DNA of 64,000 nucleotides. It comes from Ralstonia sp. A12. Lineage in GTDB: Bacteria; Pseudomonadota; Gammaproteobacteria; Burkholderiales; Burkholderiaceae. Below are positions 40,789 to 49,475 of this stretch, in pieces. The translations under genes were made by a program, and so were the position numbers. The notes under the pieces are model-generated. The model had not been told where the DNA came from and did not search any database. It was given only the letters and a program-made list of their open reading frames with translations. Location of the stretch: assembly GCF_000801955.1 (NCBI RefSeq), contig NZ_JSZO01000033.1:1-64000 (forward strand). The letters are read 5' to 3'. Each line of letters starts with the position of its first letter. Positions within the stretch are counted from its first letter, which is position 1.

Positions 40789-42360
40789 TTACTGCCACTG
40801 CCCGTCGACCAGGCGACGCAGCTTGAGCGGGTTCGCGTCTTGCAGTGCCTGCGGCAGCAGTTCTGCCGGCAGATCCTGGTAGCACACCGGGCGCAGGAAG
40901 CGCTCGATGGCAGCCGTGCCGACGGAGGTCGTGCGCGAATCCGTCGTCGCGGGCCACGGGCCGCCGTGCACCATGGCCTGGCACACCTCAACACCGGTCG
41001 GCCAGCCGTTGGCCAGGATGCGGCCTGCCTTGCGCTCCAGGGTTGGCAGCAGCGAACGGGCGATCGCCGTATCACCGGTATCCAAATGCAGCGTGGCCGT
41101 CAACTGGCCCTCGAGCGATTCGGCCAGCGTGCGCAGTTCTTCTGCGTCACGGCAGCGAACGACAAGGCCGGTAGCGCCGAAGATTTCGTCGTGCAGCGTC
41201 GGTTGTGCCTGGAAGCTCTTGGCATCGGTGGTGTAGAAACCGGCCTGCCCGCGATTGGGTTGATCGCTGTCTTGCCCGCGCGCGACGCAGCGTACGTTGG
41301 CTTCACCAGCCAGCTTGTCGACACCACGTGCGTACGCGGCGTGAATGCCGGCAGTCAGCATCGGCTGCGCGGGCGCTTGGCCCATGGCTGCAGCTGCGGC
41401 GGCTTCAAATGCGTCAAGATCCGGCCCATCGATGGCCAACAGCAGGCCTGGGTTCGTGCAGAACTGACCCGCGCCCATCGTGAGCGAGGCCACATACTGC
41501 TGCCCCAGCACAGCGGCACGCTTGGCCAGCGCGTCGGGCAGCAGGAAGACGGGGTTGATGGCACTCAGTTCGCCATACACGGGAATCGGCTGCGGACGCG
41601 CCTGCGCAATGCGCAGCAATGCCTGACCGCCAGCGCGCGAGCCGGTAAAGCCCACGGCCTGGATGCGCGGATTAGCCACGAGTGCGCCCGCCACATCGTT
41701 GTCCGCCAGGATGAGCGAGAACACGCCTTCCGGCAGCCCGCACTGGGCAACGGCTGCCTGGATGGCACGGCCGACCAGCTCCGACGTACCCGGATGTGCC
41801 GGATGCGCCTTCACCACCACCGGGCAGCCAGCCGCCAGCGCCGATGCGGTATCGCCGCCCGCCACTGAAAACGCCAGCGGGAAATTGCTCGCACCAAACA
41901 CGGCCACCGGGCCCAGCGCGATGCGGCGCAGGCGCAGGTCGGAACGCGGCAGCGGCTTGCGTTCGGGCAGTGCTGAATCGAGGCGCGCGCCCACGGCGTC
42001 GCCGGCACGCACCACGTTCGCAAACAAACGGAGCTGACCGCACGTACGGCCACGCTCGCCCTCCAGGCGGGCACGCGGCAGCGCTGATTCCGCCATGGCA
42101 CGTTCGATCAGCGCATCGCCCAGCGCTTCGATCTGACTGGCGATGGCTTCAAGGAACGCGGCGCGCGCTTCCGGTGCGGTCTCGCGGTAAACGTCAAAGG
42201 CCGCGGCGGCCAGTTCAGCGGCACGCGCGGCATCGGCCTTGGAGGCCAGGGTAAATTCGGGTTCGAGCCATTCCCCGGTGGCGGGGTTCATGGCGCGAAC
42301 CGTGCCGGCACCGCCCGCAACGCGGGCAGCACCCAGCAGCAGTTCGCCGCTCAAGTACAT
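40789..42360 (-). CDS. 2,5-dioxovalerate (2-oxoglutarate semialdehyde) dehydrogenase
   Basis: NADP-dependent aldehyde dehydrogenase that makes 2-oxoglutarate, the last step of the aldarate route. The 523 aa place it in the long, NADP-using group. Catalytic Glu lies in [12 protein letters not shown] (about 264-275) and catalytic Cys in [10 protein letters not shown] (about 299-308); [16 protein letters not shown] (about 153) and [10 protein letters not shown] (about 230) are the binding-loop motifs. It starts 25 bases after kdgD, with AAGGAA before its ATG. Its function follows from the preceding enzyme, whose product is its substrate. Confidence 0.92.
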
Positions 42361-42385
42361 GGTGGGTTCCTTATTCGGGTTGAGC

Positions 42386-43324
42386 TCAGGCGGCCAGTTT
42401 TTCGACTTCGGCCACGCGCGACACCAGCGCTGCCAGCTCGGCCACTTCTGCGTCGGTCAGGTCCGTCAACGGTGCGCGCACCGGGCCGGCGCTGCGGCCG
42501 ACGACCTTCATGCCAGCCTTGACGATCGACACTGCGTAGCCACGCTTGCGATTGCGCAGCTGGATGTACGGCAGCACGAACTCATTGAGCATCTTGTAGA
42601 CCTTGGCGTTGTCGTACGCGCGCACGGCGGCGTAGAACTCCAGGGCGAACTTCGGCACGAAGTTGAAGATGGCCGACGAGTACGTCGTCACGCCCATCGT
42701 CAGGTACGGCAGCGCAAAGGTTTCGGCGGTGGGCAGGCCACCGATGTAGGTGAAGCGGTCACCCAGGCGGGCGTAGATGCGCGTCATCAGTTCCAGATCG
42801 CCCACGCCGTCCTTGAAACCGACGAGGTTCGGGCAGCGATCGGCCAGACGTTCCAGGTGATCGGCGTCCAGGATCTGGTTGGCGCGGTTGTAGATGATCA
42901 CGCCCAGTTTGGTCGATTTGCAGACCTGCTCCACGTGGGCGGCTACGCCATCGGCGGAGGCTTCGGTCAGGTACGGGGGCAGCAGCAGGATGCCGTCGGC
43001 GCCGGCGGCTTCAGCGGCCTTGCAGTATTCGATCGATTCAGCGGTGCCACGGCCTGCGGGGGCGATCACCGGGATCTTGCCGCCGGTCTCCGCCACGGCA
43101 GCGCGCACGACGCGGTCCGTTTCGGTCGCGGTGAGCGAGAAGAACTCACCCGTGCCGCCTGCGGCAAACAAGCCGGCGGCATCGTGGCTGAACAGCCAGG
43201 CCAGGTTCTTGCGGTACGCGTCTTCGTCAAACGACAGATCGGACGCCTTGAAGTGCGTGATCGGGAAGGACAGCAGACCGGAGCCGATCTGTTGGGCGAA
43301 TTCTTTGGGGGTATATCGGGACAT
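42386..43324 (-). CDS. kdgD: 5-dehydro-4-deoxyglucarate dehydratase (decarboxylating)
   Basis: DapA-family aldolase-fold enzyme, 312 aa, that converts 5-keto-4-deoxy-D-glucarate to 2-oxoglutarate semialdehyde with loss of CO2 and water. The Schiff-base Lys is in GFKDGVGD (about 184-191), the Tyr in VIIYNRAN (about 142-149), and the [12 protein letters not shown] loop at about 55-66. It is the first gene of the eight-gene operon and lies opposite a LysR regulator; the 337-base region between them carries AT-rich inverted repeats (43414-43448). Confidence 0.95.
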
Positions 43325-43661: not shown

Positions 43662-44558
43662 ATGTTTGAGCTGAGCCAACTCCGTTGCTTTGTCGCTGTG
43701 GCCGAAGAACTGCACTTCGGGCGCGCCGCTGAACGTCTGCACATGACGCAGCCGCCGCTGTCGCGCCAGGTGCGTTTGTTGGAACACCAAGTTGGCACCG
43801 AGCTGCTTGAGCGCAACAGCCGTTCCGTCAGGTTGACCGCTGCCGGGCGCAGCTTCTTGCCGGATGCTTCGCGCATTCTGCGGTTGGCCGACGAGGCGGC
43901 TGCCACGGCGCGGCGTGTCGCCACAGGCGCAACCGGGTCATTGGCGATTGGCTTCACGGCAACGGTCGGTTATGGGCAATTGCCCGCGCTGGTGAGCGCT
44001 GTGCGGGCGGCATCCCCAGGGGTGCGATTGACGTTGAAGGAGATGGTGAGCGGTGCGCAGCTTGCGGCGCTCGATGCGCGTGAGATTGACGTTGGCCTGC
44101 TGCGCCCGCCCGTGGAGCACGGTGAGCTGACGGCGGTACCGTGCTCGCAGGAGTCGATGGTGTTGGCATTGCCCGAAGCCGTGGCCGATACCTGGCCGCT
44201 ACGCCCCAGCCTGCGCGACTGCGAGGGCAAACCGCTGCTGATGTACTCGCCCTACGAAGCGCGTTACTTCCACCAACTGGTGAGCGGTCTGCTCGAACGT
44301 GCCGAGGTGCTGCCCGACATCGTTGAATACGTCAGCCAGATTCACTCGATGCTGGCGCTGGTGCGTGCCGGGATTGGCGTGGCGCTGATCCCCGCAGCGG
44401 CATCGATGCTGCATTTTGAAGGCGTGGTCTACCGCCCCGTGCGGACCACCCCTGCGAAGCCGGTCGAGCTATGGCTGGCCTATCGCAAGGACAACGACAA
44501 CCCGGCGTTCCAGGTGCTGAAAGACACGCTGCGGCAGTCGCTCACCGGTGGACGCTGA
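43662..44558 (+). CDS. LysR-family regulator of the uronate/aldarate operon
   Basis: The 298-aa protein has the LysR winged helix-turn-helix at 1-60 (LSQLRCFVAVAEELHFGRAAERLHMTQPPLSRQVRLLE), then a two-lobe effector domain from about 90. The standard start ATG at 43662 gives the usual MFELSQLRCF beginning. Placed divergently from kdgD, so it most likely activates the operon in response to an aldarate or 5-keto-4-deoxyglucarate; the inducer is an inference. It ends five bases before the convergent small membrane gene. Confidence 0.92.
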   Translation: MFELSQLRCFVAVAEELHFGRAAERLHMTQPPLSRQVRLLEHQVGTELLERNSRSVRLTAAGRSFLPDASRILRLADEAAATARRVATGATGSLAIGFTATVGYGQLPALVSAVRAASPGVRLTLKEMVSGAQLAALDAREIDVGLLRPPVEHGELTAVPCSQESMVLALPEAVADTWPLRPSLRDCEGKPLLMYSPYEARYFHQLVSGLLERAEVLPDIVEYVSQIHSMLALVRAGIGVALIPAAASMLHFEGVVYRPVRTTPAKPVELWLAYRKDNDNPAFQVLKDTLRQSLTGGR

Positions 44559-44563
44559 TCGGG

Positions 44564-44932
44564 TCAGAGAACACTGCGGGCGCCCATCATGGCGCCCGCA
44601 ACATTCAGCACGACACCTGTGCCGTTGATGAGGATGGCGGCCGCCCAGGCAGCCAATGACTGATAGGCTTGCGTCGGCCCGCGACGCAGATGCGCGAGCA
44701 CCCCTCCCGCACCGAGCACCAGCACGAAGCACAGCATCGCCGCGCGGTAGGCGGCATCGAACCCGGTATGCCCTACCCACAAGGCCAGCGCATACAGCGC
44801 GAACACGCCAGAAGCGACAACGAGGTTGGTTGGCGCCAGCGGTTTCCTACCCGCCAGCGCCAGGCTGACACTCAACGCGTTGAAGGCAAGTGCAACGCAC
44901 AGGTAGGCGATCTGCAGCAGCAATATCTGCAT
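44564..44932 (-). CDS. Small four-helix membrane protein, unknown function
   Basis: A 122-residue protein almost entirely made of four hydrophobic helices (about 2-24, 36-54, 62-80, 90-112) with short basic loops (LAGRKPL, HLRRGP). I do not recognise a family. Its ATG is six bases after the stop of the M24-fold gene, so the two form an operon and are probably controlled by the TetR operator at 46181. A role as a transporter subunit or in export is possible but unsupported. Confidence 0.7.
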   Translation of the reverse strand: MQILLLQIAYLCVALAFNALSVSLALAGRKPLAPTNLVVASGVFALYALALWVGHTGFDAAYRAAMLCFVLVLGAGGVLAHLRRGPTQAYQSLAAWAAAILINGTGVVLNVAGAMMGARSVL

Positions 44933-44938
44933 GGCCGC

Positions 44939-46150
44939 TCACAGGTTCAGCGCATTGCGGACCAGACTGCGTTGCAGCCGATGACGTAGCTTGGGGCGCC
45001 CGAGCACAAGCTCGTTCAACCGTATCGGTGCCTTGGTCAGACAGCGGTAGCCGTTGGCGGTGACGAGCACGGTGTCGGAGTGACGGTATCCACCCTCGCC
45101 CGCCAGATAGATGCCGGGCTCGATGGAAATCACCATGTTCTCCTGCAGCACGTGTTCGCTGCCTTCGGCAATCCACGGTGGTTCGTGATTGCCCAGACCG
45201 AAGCCGTGTCCGCAGCGGTGCAGCCGCACGCTGTCGCCCGCATAGCCGCTACCGGCCAGGAAACGGTTGACCTGCCAGTCCAGCTCCGAGCAGTGCATGC
45301 CTGGGCGCACGAGTGAGAACGCCCGCTCGCGTGCAGCTTCCAGCAGGTGGAACAGCTCGCGTGCCCGCGGGTCGGGGCGTGTGGTGAAGAACGTGCGCTC
45401 GCTTTCTGCCGCATAGCCATTGACGCGAGTCAGCACCATCGCCACGTGCGGGCCTTCGTTCAGTGTCATGTCCAGGCGCGGAATGGCGTGCGGCTCCGCA
45501 CTCAGCGGCGCGGGCCATGCCCCGCAGATGACGCGCGTGGCCACCGGGTCCCAATCGGGAGTCTCGCGGATGATCTTGCGCGAGAGCGCCTGCCCTGGCG
45601 TAAACGTTTCGGCCACCAACGCGCCTTCTGAGGCACTGCGCAGGATTTGCTGGACGCCCCAGTCTGCATAGTGCGCGGCACGCTCGATGGCGGCAATTTC
45701 CCATGCCGACTTGATGATGCGGATGCCTTCCATCAGCTCATGTGGCTCGCCACCGGCATCGAGCAGCACTCGCGCCATCGCCAGCGGCAGGCTTGGCTCG
45801 AACGCGAACCCCGGCTGCAGCAGCCCCGTGCCGAGCAACGCGTCATGCCAGGTCGCCCCGGCAGGCGCCGGGTACTCGCGATAGGTCGAGACGCGGTCTT
45901 GTGCGCCCCATGCCTTGCCCAGGTGGTCAAGCTCCAGCGTCGGCACCACCAGCTGGCGCCCGCCGTCTGCACCGAGGATCAGGAAGAACGGTCGCTCCAG
46001 CGCATCGAAGGTGGCGCCGGTCAGATAGAACAGGTTGTCGGTGTCGGTCAGCACCAGTTGACGCAGACCCGCCGCGCGCATTGCAGCACACACTGCATCG
46101 GCACGCCTCTGGAATTCCTGGTCCTGCTCCGGTGTAAAGGCTGCTTTCAT
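44939..46150 (-). CDS. M24-family (creatinase/aminopeptidase P fold) hydrolase lacking metal ligands
   Basis: The 403 aa have an N-terminal creatinase domain (about 1-140) and a C-terminal pita-bread domain (about 150-380). GHGFGLGNHEPPW (314-326) and ISIEPGIY (341-348) are intact. By alignment, however, the first metal Asp corresponds to Met238, the second (in DxTRT) to Glu249 of AESERT, and the last Glu to Ser358 of RHSDTV. Three of five dinuclear metal ligands are therefore gone, as in creatinase, which works without metal using the conserved His. So this is more likely a metal-free amidinohydrolase-like enzyme than a proline peptidase. It diverges from a porin and an MHS permease and shares their predicted operator type. 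Confidence 0.85.
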   Translation of the reverse strand: MKAAFTPEQDQEFQRRADAVCAAMRAAGLRQLVLTDTDNLFYLTGATFDALERPFFLILGADGGRQLVVPTLELDHLGKAWGAQDRVSTYREYPAPAGATWHDALLGTGLLQPGFAFEPSLPLAMARVLLDAGGEPHELMEGIRIIKSAWEIAAIERAAHYADWGVQQILRSASEGALVAETFTPGQALSRKIIRETPDWDPVATRVICGAWPAPLSAEPHAIPRLDMTLNEGPHVAMVLTRVNGYAAESERTFFTTRPDPRARELFHLLEAARERAFSLVRPGMHCSELDWQVNRFLAGSGYAGDSVRLHRCGHGFGLGNHEPPWIAEGSEHVLQENMVISIEPGIYLAGEGGYRHSDTVLVTANGYRCLTKAPIRLNELVLGRPKLRHRLQRSLVRNALNL

Positions 46151-46180
46151 GGTGATCCCGCGTCAGTTCAAAAATAAAAC

Positions 46181-46194
46181 GTACCGAATGGTAC
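46181..46194. promoter_or_regulatory. Operator copy 1 (GTACC-N4-GGTAC), before the M24 gene
   Basis: Perfect palindrome GTACCGAATGGTAC, 31 bases upstream of the M24-fold gene start. It differs by one base from the copy at 46305. Likely binding site of the TetR regulator encoded at 48873-49475. Confidence 0.75.
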
Positions 46195-46304
46195 ACACAT
46201 GATTTGATCGGGACAACTAGGGAATCTCGCAAATACCAACTCTGCTGTTTAAGCGCATGATGCCCTTCGCGCAGAGTCATTCTTTGGCCTCTTGCGTTAC
46301 TGAT

Positions 46305-46318
46305 GTACCGATTGGTAC
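46305..46318. promoter_or_regulatory. Operator copy 2 (GTACC-N4-GGTAC), before the porin gene
   Basis: Perfect palindrome GTACCGATTGGTAC, 45 bases upstream of the porin start and 124 bases (centre to centre) from copy 1. The pair covers both divergent promoters of the module. Confidence 0.75.
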
Positions 46319-46362
46319 GTGAGAAAGAACACTCTGAGAACAGAACCAGGAGGAAGACAGCG

Positions 46363-47556
46363 ATGGGAATTGCAGGCGGCATCCGCGCGGCGGGCGTGAT
46401 CGGCCTTTCCGTGATGGGCTCGACGTATGCCCAGTCCAATGTGACGCTATACGGCACGGTTGAAAATGCCCTGTCGTACACCACGCACGTCAATGCAGCG
46501 GGCGATAGCCTATCTGGCATGTCGGCGGGCATTCTCACCACCAGCCGCTGGGGCATGCGCGGCCGGGAAGATCTTGGGCAAGGCTGGGGCGCCGTTTTCA
46601 ACCTGGAGCAAGGGTTCTCTCCGGCCAACGGCGCAACACAGCAGCAGGCATGGTCACGCGAATCGTGGGTCGGGCTGGAAGGACCGTACGGCCGCGTGAC
46701 GCTGGGCCGGACCTACGCCCCCATCCTGGAAGCCGCCTACATGGCCGACCCGCTGCGTGAAGGGACCGGCACGGCTTCGGTGGTGGCGCTGGGCCAGTTG
46801 AGCGTGCTGGCGCCCGGCAACGGTTACCGACTCGACAAGACCATCCGGTACACCACGCCTGCATCGTGGGGGCCGATCTCGGGCAGCATGCTCTACGCAT
46901 TCGGCACGCCCGGCAGCAACGTGCAGAAAAGCGATTTTGGCGCGCACCTGATGTACGGCACACCATCGCTCACGCTGGTGGCTGGCTACAACCGAGAAGA
47001 CAACCCGTGGGACGCCTCGGGCTCGATGATCAACGCCGTGGCGGCCGGTACACCGCGCCCACCCATCGCCAGCCCCGCTTACCTGAACGACTGGAAGCGC
47101 GAGACCTGGATGCTGGGTGTCAACTACACGATCAACCAGCTCAACCTGTACGCCGGTTACTCGCACGACAGTGACCGCCCCTCTTCCGGCGCAGCGCGGC
47201 GCGGATACACCACACACCTGTACTGGGCCGGTGCGGCCTACTGGTTGACCCGCAACACCGACCTGCGCGTCGGCTTCTACAAGCTGCGGGTGGAAGACAC
47301 CAATATCCACCCGTATCTGGTGGGCGCACAGCTCGGCTACTACCTGTCGAAGAACGTTGATGTGTACCTGTTGGGGGCGTTTGTCCATAACCAGGGTGGC
47401 GCGGGTACGAGCTATCCGGTCGTGGCCTTCGGCACATCGGCGGCGGCCTCGGCGTATGGCGCCAATACGCTGGCGCAATCGCTCGGCACCACCAGCAGCG
47501 TCACGCCGGGCGCCAATCAGTTTCAGGTGGCGGTGGGCGTGCGCTACCGCTTCTAA
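46363..47556 (+). CDS. Outer-membrane porin, betaproteobacterial OmpC type
   Basis: The 397-aa trimeric general porin begins with a signal peptide ending STYAQS (cleavage near residue 24), then the first strand SNVTLYGTVENALSY. Strand signatures include SRWGMRGREDLGQGW, SWVGLEGPYGRVTLGR and the terminal QVAVGVRYRF with a C-terminal Phe, needed for assembly by the BAM complex. AGGAGG lies six to eleven bases before ATG 46363, which rules out the longer frame from 46303. First gene of a plus-strand unit with an MHS permease; it probably admits the module's substrate through the outer membrane. Confidence 0.93.
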   Translation: MGIAGGIRAAGVIGLSVMGSTYAQSNVTLYGTVENALSYTTHVNAAGDSLSGMSAGILTTSRWGMRGREDLGQGWGAVFNLEQGFSPANGATQQQAWSRESWVGLEGPYGRVTLGRTYAPILEAAYMADPLREGTGTASVVALGQLSVLAPGNGYRLDKTIRYTTPASWGPISGSMLYAFGTPGSNVQKSDFGAHLMYGTPSLTLVAGYNREDNPWDASGSMINAVAAGTPRPPIASPAYLNDWKRETWMLGVNYTINQLNLYAGYSHDSDRPSSGAARRGYTTHLYWAGAAYWLTRNTDLRVGFYKLRVEDTNIHPYLVGAQLGYYLSKNVDVYLLGAFVHNQGGAGTSYPVVAFGTSAAASAYGANTLAQSLGTTSSVTPGANQFQVAVGVRYRF

Positions 47557-47573
47557 CCCCGGAGGCACGCGAT

Positions 47574-48836
47574 ATGACAACCCTTCGCCACAACCTGGTC
47601 GGCGCGGCCGTCGGCAACTTCTTCGAATGGCTCGACTTCACCCTGTACGGCTACTTTGCGCTGGCCATTGCGCGCAACTTCTTTCCAGCAGGCAACGAGG
47701 TACTTTCCACGCTGGCCGCCGTCACCGCCTTCGCCGCCGGCTTTGTCGTGCGTCCGTTCGGCGCCTGGTGCATCGGCCGCTACGCTGACCGGCGCGGTCG
47801 CAAGGCCGCCATGGTTGCCACGGTTCTGCTGATGGGCGCAGGCACGTTGCTGATTGCCGTTGCCCCGCCCTACAAGACAGCAGGCCTGCTCGGGACGGCC
47901 ATGGTGATCATGGGCCGGCTGCTGTCGGGCTTTGCGGCCTCGGGCGAAAGTGGTGCCGCTGGTGCGCTGGTGATCGAGTCCTGCCCGCCGCACCGGCGCG
48001 GCTGGTATGGCGCCGTATTCAGCGCATCCACCTATCTGGCGCTGGCAGCCGGGTCCGGCCTGGCCCTGCTGGTGTTCGGCACGCTGGGTGTGGAGCGCAC
48101 GCTGGATTGGGGTTGGCGTATCGGTTTTGTGGTGGGGCTGTGCGTGATTCCGGTGGGGGCCTATCTGCGGCGGCACATGAATGAAAGCCTGCACACGGGT
48201 GCCACGCTGGTCACCGGCGCAGAGGCACGTACGCTGCCGGCCCGCACGCTGGCCGCGCAGGTCATCATGGTCTCGGCATTGACGGGCTTCGGCTCGGCGG
48301 TGGTCTACCTGGCCATCGTCTTCATGCCGGCATTTGCCACGCAGGCGCTCAAGATCGGGCAGACCACCGGGGCGATCGGATCCACGCTGGCGGCGCTCGC
48401 CATCATTGCCGGCTCGTTGATCGGCGGGCCTTGGTCTGACCGGCGCGGGCGCAGCGGCATCATGTTGTTCGGCATCGTGCTGGCGCTGGGCCTGGGTACG
48501 CCGCTATACGAACGGCTACTCGCCAGCCCGACGCCTGGGGCGCTGTTTGCCTTCCAGGTGGCGTGTGCGCTCGGGTTCGGCCTGTTCCTGGGCGGCAGCT
48601 TTCCGTTCTTTGCGGAGCGCTTTCCGCCCGGGCAGCGCGCGCTGGGCATTGGGCTGGGCTACAACATCGGCGTGATGCTGTTTGGCGCCGCGTCGCCTGT
48701 GGTGTCCACCTATGCGCTCTCGCAAGGCATCGTCCGGGCGCCGCTCTACTACCTGCTGGCAGCGGCTGTTGTGTCGGTGGTGGCCATTCTTTGCATGCGT
48801 AAGCCACCGGCTTGGCAGCGCCCGTTGATCGCGTAG
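47574..48836 (+). CDS. MFS permease, metabolite:H+ symporter (MHS) family
   Basis: The 420-aa transporter has 12 membrane helices and the MHS-type start GNFFEWLDFTLYGYFALAIA, the DRRGRKAAM loop (about 76-84) between helices 2 and 3, and GRLLSGFAASGESGAAG (about 117-133). Family members carry citrate, proline/betaine, alpha-ketoglutarate, dicarboxylates or shikimate. It begins 17 bases after the porin with GGAGG before the ATG, so they are co-transcribed. The substrate is probably what the M24-fold enzyme cleaves. Confidence 0.9.
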   Translation: MTTLRHNLVGAAVGNFFEWLDFTLYGYFALAIARNFFPAGNEVLSTLAAVTAFAAGFVVRPFGAWCIGRYADRRGRKAAMVATVLLMGAGTLLIAVAPPYKTAGLLGTAMVIMGRLLSGFAASGESGAAGALVIESCPPHRRGWYGAVFSASTYLALAAGSGLALLVFGTLGVERTLDWGWRIGFVVGLCVIPVGAYLRRHMNESLHTGATLVTGAEARTLPARTLAAQVIMVSALTGFGSAVVYLAIVFMPAFATQALKIGQTTGAIGSTLAALAIIAGSLIGGPWSDRRGRSGIMLFGIVLALGLGTPLYERLLASPTPGALFAFQVACALGFGLFLGGSFPFFAERFPPGQRALGIGLGYNIGVMLFGAASPVVSTYALSQGIVRAPLYYLLAAAVVSVVAILCMRKPPAWQRPLIA

Positions 48837-48872
48837 ACTGGCGGGCAATCCAAGCCTCGAGCAGCATCCCGT

Positions 48873-49475
48873 ATGACCACTGCCGCACCGCGCAAGAAGC
48901 GCACCGAGACCCCGTTCACACCCAGCGAGTCTGCCGTCAAATCGCTCGATGCCGCTGTCCGCTATGTGCTCGACAACGGTATCGGCGACATGTCGTTGCG
49001 GCGCGTGGCCGAGGCCATCGGCACCAGCCACCGCATGCTGATCTACCACTTCGGCTCCGCCGATGAATTCTGGGAGATCGTGCTGCGCGAGATCCGCCAC
49101 CGCGAGCAGCTTGCGCGCGTGCGCATCCAGAACGACATCGATGACCCAGTGGCCGCCATTGAAGCCGCATGGGACCGCTACGCGTCGGATGCCTATCTGC
49201 CCATCATCCGGCTGCTGTTTGAGCTGTACGCACGCGCCATTCGCGAGCCCGAGCGCTTTCATGATTTTCTCGGTGACGTGGTGGACAGTTGGCTCGCGCC
49301 TGTCACGGCGCTGTTCGAAGCGCGGCTTGGCCTGCCCGCGGCCGAAGCCCGCGCCCGTGCTCGCATTCAGGTAGCGACGATGCGCGGGCTGCTGCTCGAT
49401 CTCGTCACCACGGGCGATCGCAAAGGCACCACCGCTGCACTGAAGCGTTTTGCGCGGATGATCACCGCGCCCTGA
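48873..49475 (+). CDS. TetR-family regulator of the M24/porin/MHS module
   Basis: A 200-aa repressor-type protein with helix-turn-helix at about 25-68 (MSLRRVAEAIGTSHRMLIYHFGS) and an all-helical ligand domain. Third gene of the plus-strand unit, 36 bases after the permease, so it would be autoregulated through the operator at 46305. The two GTACC-N4-GGTAC palindromes in the divergent region are the natural targets. It ends within a 10-bp palindrome (49473-49482) that also holds the stop of the convergent ssuA-like gene. Confidence 0.9.
   Translation: MTTAAPRKKRTETPFTPSESAVKSLDAAVRYVLDNGIGDMSLRRVAEAIGTSHRMLIYHFGSADEFWEIVLREIRHREQLARVRIQNDIDDPVAAIEAAWDRYASDAYLPIIRLLFELYARAIREPERFHDFLGDVVDSWLAPVTALFEARLGLPAAEARARARIQVATMRGLLLDLVTTGDRKGTTAALKRFARMITAP

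Follow-up and report, generated by a model that had tools for sequence, protein, structure and literature searches.

What is taken up and broken down by a small bacterial gene cluster that joins a porin, a permease and an enzyme of the M24 fold, and what keeps it under control? The cluster lies in a stretch of 64,000 nucleotides from Ralstonia sp. A12 (contig NZ_JSZO01000033.1, positions 1 to 64,000), here called the window. It consists of two divergent units: leftward, the M24 gene and a gene for a small membrane protein, and rightward, genes for the porin, an MHS-type permease and a TetR-family regulator (Table 1). A repressor-controlled catabolic island is the explanation of the whole that is held here with fair confidence. 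The enzyme is probably a creatinase-like hydrolase and not a peptidase, and two palindromes between the units very probably are the sites on which the TetR protein acts.

Both palindromes, GTACCGAATGGTAC and GTACCGATTGGTAC, fall inside the 212 bp that separate the M24 start from the porin start. Their centres are 124 bp apart, one about 37 bp ahead of the M24 start and the other 51 bp ahead of the porin ATG. The arms are exact in both and a single spacer base differs, in agreement with an earlier note on this DNA, which had seen near-identical palindromes before two divergent units, one of them ending in a TetR gene. The bare core has no statistical significance of its own, because 2 sites with at most one core mismatch in the window (0.49 expected) are reached in 9 of 100 shuffles, and because the genome holds 7 sites as compared with 9 for a reversed control. 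Genome-wide enrichment of the core was rejected as evidence, and the window alone offers no proof of function. The case for function is comparative, since a wider pattern, TGTACCRNNYGGTACR, is confined to the TetR locus. This pattern was searched in 24 genomes (21 Cupriavidus, the window's genome G000, G005 and G013), where the reversed control gave 0-3 hits per strand and genome. In G000 it occurs at the two window sites only. Each of the 21 Cupriavidus has it in one place, next to the TetR orthologue; in one of these (G229) that place holds two sites 23 bp apart. Occurrence at a single place per genome points to a regulon of one locus.

The TetR protein was followed through 398 genomes of the family with an orthologue cut-off of E <= 1e-25. 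Matches were obtained in 28, the window's own counted: 24 Cupriavidus, two members of the window's own genus (G005 and G013) and G204, where the match is distant (36-38% identity). The megaplasmid of C. metallidurans CH34 gives the same match as one of these Cupriavidus. The 13 other genomes of the window's genus have none at this cut-off. All 24 Cupriavidus loci have the order TetR, palindrome, TctC binding protein and M24 on a single strand, the M24 match being fragmented in G429. A stricter pattern, TGTACCANNTGGTACA, is present in 24 of 24 TetR-positive and 0 of 35 TetR-negative Cupriavidus, so that orthologue and site are jointly present or jointly absent in all 59 sampled genomes of that genus; the three Cupriavidus outside the TGTACCRNNYGGTACR search (G424, G429, G433) have the strict site. 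Over the 398 genomes it was found in 28, the same 24 Cupriavidus plus four g10 genomes, with the reversed control in 2. A palindrome stands beside the TetR orthologue in the 24 Cupriavidus loci and in the window, and at none of G005, G013 and the distant G204. The recognition segment of the protein (residues 46-60) keeps 12-13 of 15 positions, while the C-terminal part is 51-64% identical. The comparative data thus link palindromes and TetR strongly, as the earlier note had supposed, and binding is predicted, although these are not 24 independent events because the genomes are related. Wider TetR relatives at five plasmid loci of Streptomyces and Pseudonocardia were set aside, no M24 gene being among the listed features.

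The M24 protein has lost the binuclear metal site of its fold. Where canonical enzymes have Asp-Asp-His-Glu-Glu, it reads M238, E249, H315, E344 and S358, with three of five positions changed (V239, which a first HMMER alignment put at the lost Asp position, was rejected on spacing in favor of M238). The creatinase trio His232/Glu262/Glu358 is kept as H221, E251 and E344 in an alignment with an orthologue of creatinase (PDB 1chm). Because the ligands have changed while the His/Glu/Glu trio is kept, the enzyme is probably no proline peptidase. No NCBIfam model, peptidase models included, reached its cut-off with this protein.

Changed ligand positions run through two groups of relatives. In clade A (16 proteins, the window's included) the ligand positions read hydrophobic, E, H, E, S, and in clade B (27 proteins) L/I, E, H, E, D. 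They are altered in all 43 proteins of the two clades that could be read; the partial Cupriavidus protein of G429 yields no ligand data, and L006 and L007 are outside the tree. Glu251 (1chm Glu262) is present in the same 43 and in both creatinases, whereas the full Asp-Asp-His-Glu-Glu enzymes in the alignment have Thr or Ser there. R53 aligns with creatinase Arg64 and is no creatinase marker, because the canonical enzymes L019 and L020 also have Arg. Tree support is 97/94 for clade A and 100/100 for clade B; clade A joins creatinase at a weak 88/30. Judged by these residues, clade A proteins are likely to be metal-free, clade B proteins less certainly so. The earlier note had called the enzyme a metal-free M24-fold protein and raised the possibility of a guanidino or N-acyl substrate in place of a proline peptide. 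The residues make the first claim likely, and the second is favored as well: a guanidino/amidino or acylamino substrate appears likelier because the binuclear site is lost and the active site is creatinase-like.

Among known systems, the module acts most like a creatine utilization unit with another substrate. By sequence the enzyme belongs to the pita-bread fold family of creatinase; however, it falls in a separate clade and matches 1chm at E 8.8e-12, as compared with 2.8e-201 for a real orthologue, so that it is not itself orthologous. Creatine loci also use another regulator. Two true creatinase relatives are in the sample, one matching 1chm at the latter value and the other 89% identical to the first. 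That of G044 (L047:7114-9749) adjoins an MHS permease and an AraC gene, and that of G054 (L157:7231-9773) adjoins a serine hydroxymethyltransferase gene. Ectoine hydrolase (DoeA/EutD) is likewise a non-peptidase hydrolase of the M24 fold from catabolic clusters and keeps the His at 221; in the five aligned, however, Ser and Met occupy the places of Glu251 and Glu344. Membership in that family was rejected on this ground and on the TIGR02993 score (24.7 bits, cut-off 613). Prolidases and Xaa-Pro dipeptidases (M24B) provide the usual database label of the relatives and the closest solved structures (PepE 3.7e-31 and Pfu prolidase 1.4e-30), although their binuclear site is not conserved in the window enzyme. 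TetR-controlled catabolic operons share the local regulator gene and the short upstream palindromes; the window TetR, in contrast, is below all NCBIfam equivalog cut-offs. A search of the open-access literature found nothing on the gene set, a GTACC-N4-GGTAC operator or its ligand.

The proposed mechanism is as follows. The TetR protein would repress both divergent units through the two palindromes and would be released by the compound or its product. The compound would cross the outer membrane by way of the porin and enter the cell on the MHS symporter, as the families suggest; the small membrane protein perhaps aids the permease. The M24-fold enzyme would then hydrolyse the compound independently of a binuclear metal site, using His221, Glu251 and Glu344. 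The substrate is put forward tentatively as a small carboxylate bearing an amidino, guanidino or acylamino group, neither creatine itself nor an Xaa-Pro peptide. In Cupriavidus the same repressor would act at a close variant of the site before the TctC binding protein and an M24 enzyme of clade B, so that two M24 clades appear to stand under one repressor type in different genera. Because the same repressor and a close site variant precede a related enzyme there, substrate class and inducer are probably common to the window and Cupriavidus, with transporter and enzyme clade exchanged. It is possible, if still doubtful, that clades A and B are two families of metal-independent creatinase-like hydrolases for one undescribed amidino- or guanidino-carboxylate, repressor and operator being fixed while enzyme clade and transporter are exchanged. 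If the proposal is true, proteins labelled 'Xaa-Pro peptidase' in Burkholderiaceae, rhizobia, roseobacters and Firmicutes conceal a catabolic pathway. The candidate repressor-operator pair singles out one locus in each Cupriavidus genome tested, a group of proteins labelled Xaa-Pro peptidases is flagged as lacking the peptidase metal site, and the inducer of a single TetR protein, once identified, would give a lead to what both enzyme clades act on.

Several observations weigh against this proposal. The window's genome shows no excess of the bare palindrome, and both window sites fail the strict pattern TGTACCANNTGGTACA. The four g10 genomes carry TGTACCANNTGGTACA and no TetR or M24 homologue (E 1e-4, 12 kb read each); their palindromes are taken as chance or as the sites of another regulator. 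The Cupriavidus genomes are interrelated, as are the g12 genomes in which clade A genes recur, and counts from them are not independent. Creatinase Arg335 and Phe62 are not kept in the enzyme (position 51 is Leu, and no Arg follows His322-Glu323). The grouping of clade A, clade B and creatinase is weak (84/21) and carries a long-branch warning. Clade B may hold a single metal, since four possible ligands remain. The 16 kb read at the G054 creatinase locus gave no MHS match. As a separate observation, the layout of open reading frames around the g10 sites (L159:5675, L160:6276, L161:6004, L162:5867) suggests two pairs of matching loci.

An altered or mono-metal prolidase, in a TetR-controlled island for scavenging peptides or proline derivatives, would account for the solved dipeptidases being closer in sequence than creatinase, and E249, H315 and E344 could still bind one metal. 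All 16 clade A rows, however, show Asp replaced by a hydrophobic residue and Glu by Ser at ligand positions, a creatinase-type Glu251 replaces Thr/Ser, and no peptidase model is passed, which makes this explanation unlikely. Detoxification is a further alternative: the TetR protein would sense a toxic compound, the permease or porin would export it and the M24 enzyme would destroy it. TetR regulators often control export, and plasmids of Lactiplantibacillus plantarum and of Rhizobium (pMK-3) likewise pair TetR and M24 genes. MHS proteins, on the other hand, are proton symporters for uptake, and the orthologous Cupriavidus repressor precedes a periplasmic binding protein, an uptake component; export is accordingly judged improbable.

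The palindromes could also serve another regulator, with TetR controlling its own unit alone or a distant target. Binding of TetR to them is a prediction, a LysR gene adjoins the module, and the g10 genomes have the strict site in the absence of this TetR. Such an arrangement is nevertheless very improbable, given the joint presence or absence of site and TetR throughout the sampled Cupriavidus and the single place per genome beside TetR. In addition, the 8 Cupriavidus loci scanned or matched have no common LysR gene; TetR, TctC and M24 alone are conserved in most.

The catabolic island remains the preferred explanation, and the partners of the M24 genes elsewhere can be compared with it. A transporter gene is in the same cluster for 11 of the 16 clade A tree rows. 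An MHS gene shares the cluster with the clade A gene in the window and adjoins the clade A gene in all six g12 genomes that carry it, where the adjacent copy is, by a small margin, the best of 23-30 window-permease matches in each. On Rhizobium plasmid pMK-3 (L114:5232-12676), TetR, M24 and an MHS-like MFS gene lie between Tn3 transposase and recombinase genes, a stretch that resembles a mobile cassette. TRAP transporters accompany clade A genes in two Leisingera and in Mameliella. On the L. plantarum plasmid (L113:8190-10927) the clade A gene is divergent from TetR, with a YitT membrane protein on the other side. No transporter is among the few neighbors scanned at L002 and L004, and the neighborhood of row L112 is without annotation. 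Bradyrhizobium manausense (L001:6297-9140) has one M24 gene of each clade, the two placed back to back; ABC transporter genes follow the clade B gene, and the clade A gene has an AraC gene as its neighbor. Outside Cupriavidus, ABC transporter genes (ABC_tran + TOBE_2) accompany clade B at four loci; the solute-binding proteins are of SBP_bac_8 type in three loci scanned, and the Bradyrhizobium one is weakly PotD-like, under the cut-off.

None of the TetR proteins from Leisingera, L. plantarum and pMK-3 matches the window TetR at E 1e-4. Among the inverted-repeat pairs listed upstream of the M24 gene in Bradyrhizobium, pMK-3, L. plantarum and Leisingera, none resembles GTACC-N4-GGTAC, in a weak test whose 7-base arm minimum misses the window's own 5-base arms and which covered 5 of 6 Leisingera pairs. 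Both Leisingera loci (L003:5850-14805 and L111:8947-18970) contain, with the clade A gene, two TRAP transporters and genes for a class III aminotransferase, a HAD dehalogenase and a succinate-semialdehyde dehydrogenase; aminotransferase and dehydrogenase would fit a hydrolysis that leaves an omega-amino acid.

The window's own accessory proteins are less widespread. At E <= 1e-90, 60 relatives contain no close copy of the permease, and at E <= 1e-100 the 15 other genomes of the genus contain none of the porin. The small membrane protein is found in 2 of the 398 family genomes, one copy being a remnant, and has no plasmid match at E <= 0.01 and no Pfam or NCBIfam family at E <= 1e-3. It is an orphan, the porin is not shared, and transporters vary among loci. 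The earlier note's five-gene regulon therefore stands in part. Comparison supports the TetR-palindrome linkage, whereas the genes form two divergent units and the full set was found in the window's genome only. The search of related genomes for gene set and palindrome that it had proposed finds TetR, site and M24 together in Cupriavidus, and elsewhere the M24 gene does occur with a permease, MHS in the g12 genomes, an MHS-like MFS on pMK-3 and TRAP in roseobacters; neither the porin nor the small protein, however, was found with any other intact copy.

The two genus-mates with a TetR match have no copy of TGTACCRNNYGGTACR. G005 (L080:9000-11100) keeps the flanking genes and a TetR gene at 97%, and the stretch equivalent to window 44708-48705 is deleted; at the junction the tail of the small-protein gene meets that of the permease gene, the aligned pieces overlapping by 5 bp. 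Because flanks, TetR and remnants of both genes are kept, the module is probably older than the split from G005, where TetR was left an orphan. The TetR gene of G013 is cut off by the end of its contig, and that genome yielded no M24 gene of clade A.

Table 1. Features of the module, in window coordinates.
Feature	Position	Strand	Remarks
Small membrane protein, 122 residues	44564..44932	-	four hydropathy peaks; 6 bp after M24 gene
M24-fold enzyme, 403 residues, clade A	44939..46150	-	Pfam Peptidase_M24 116.1 bits (cut-off 23), Creatinase_N 34.2
Palindrome 1, presumed operator of M24 unit	46181..46194	none	exact, GTACCGAATGGTAC
Palindrome 2, presumed operator of porin unit	46305..46318	none	exact, GTACCGATTGGTAC
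Outer-membrane porin, 397 residues from likely start	46363..47556	+	Pfam Porin_4 141.8 bits
MHS-type major facilitator permease, 420 residues	47574..48836	+	Pfam MFS_1 and Sugar_tr
TetR-family regulator, 200 residues, presumed repressor of both units	48873..49475	+	TetR_N 26.9 bits (cut-off 24)

The porin open reading frame opens at 46303, and its likely start is the ATG that follows an AGGAGG. Gaps in the rightward unit are 17 bp between porin and permease and 36 bp between permease and TetR. The permease scores 262.6 bits (E 6.2e-78) against the MHS model TIGR00883, whose cut-off is 443. A promoter scan of the divergent gap found no sigma-70-like site. Foreign origin by composition was considered and rejected, the guanine-plus-cytosine content of the module resembling that of its flanks. 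An SsuA-like binding protein is encoded on one side of the module. On the other are a LysR gene (43662-44558) and, divergent from it, a glucarate-type pair (40789-43324): KdgD, which passes its NCBIfam cut-off, and an aldehyde dehydrogenase.

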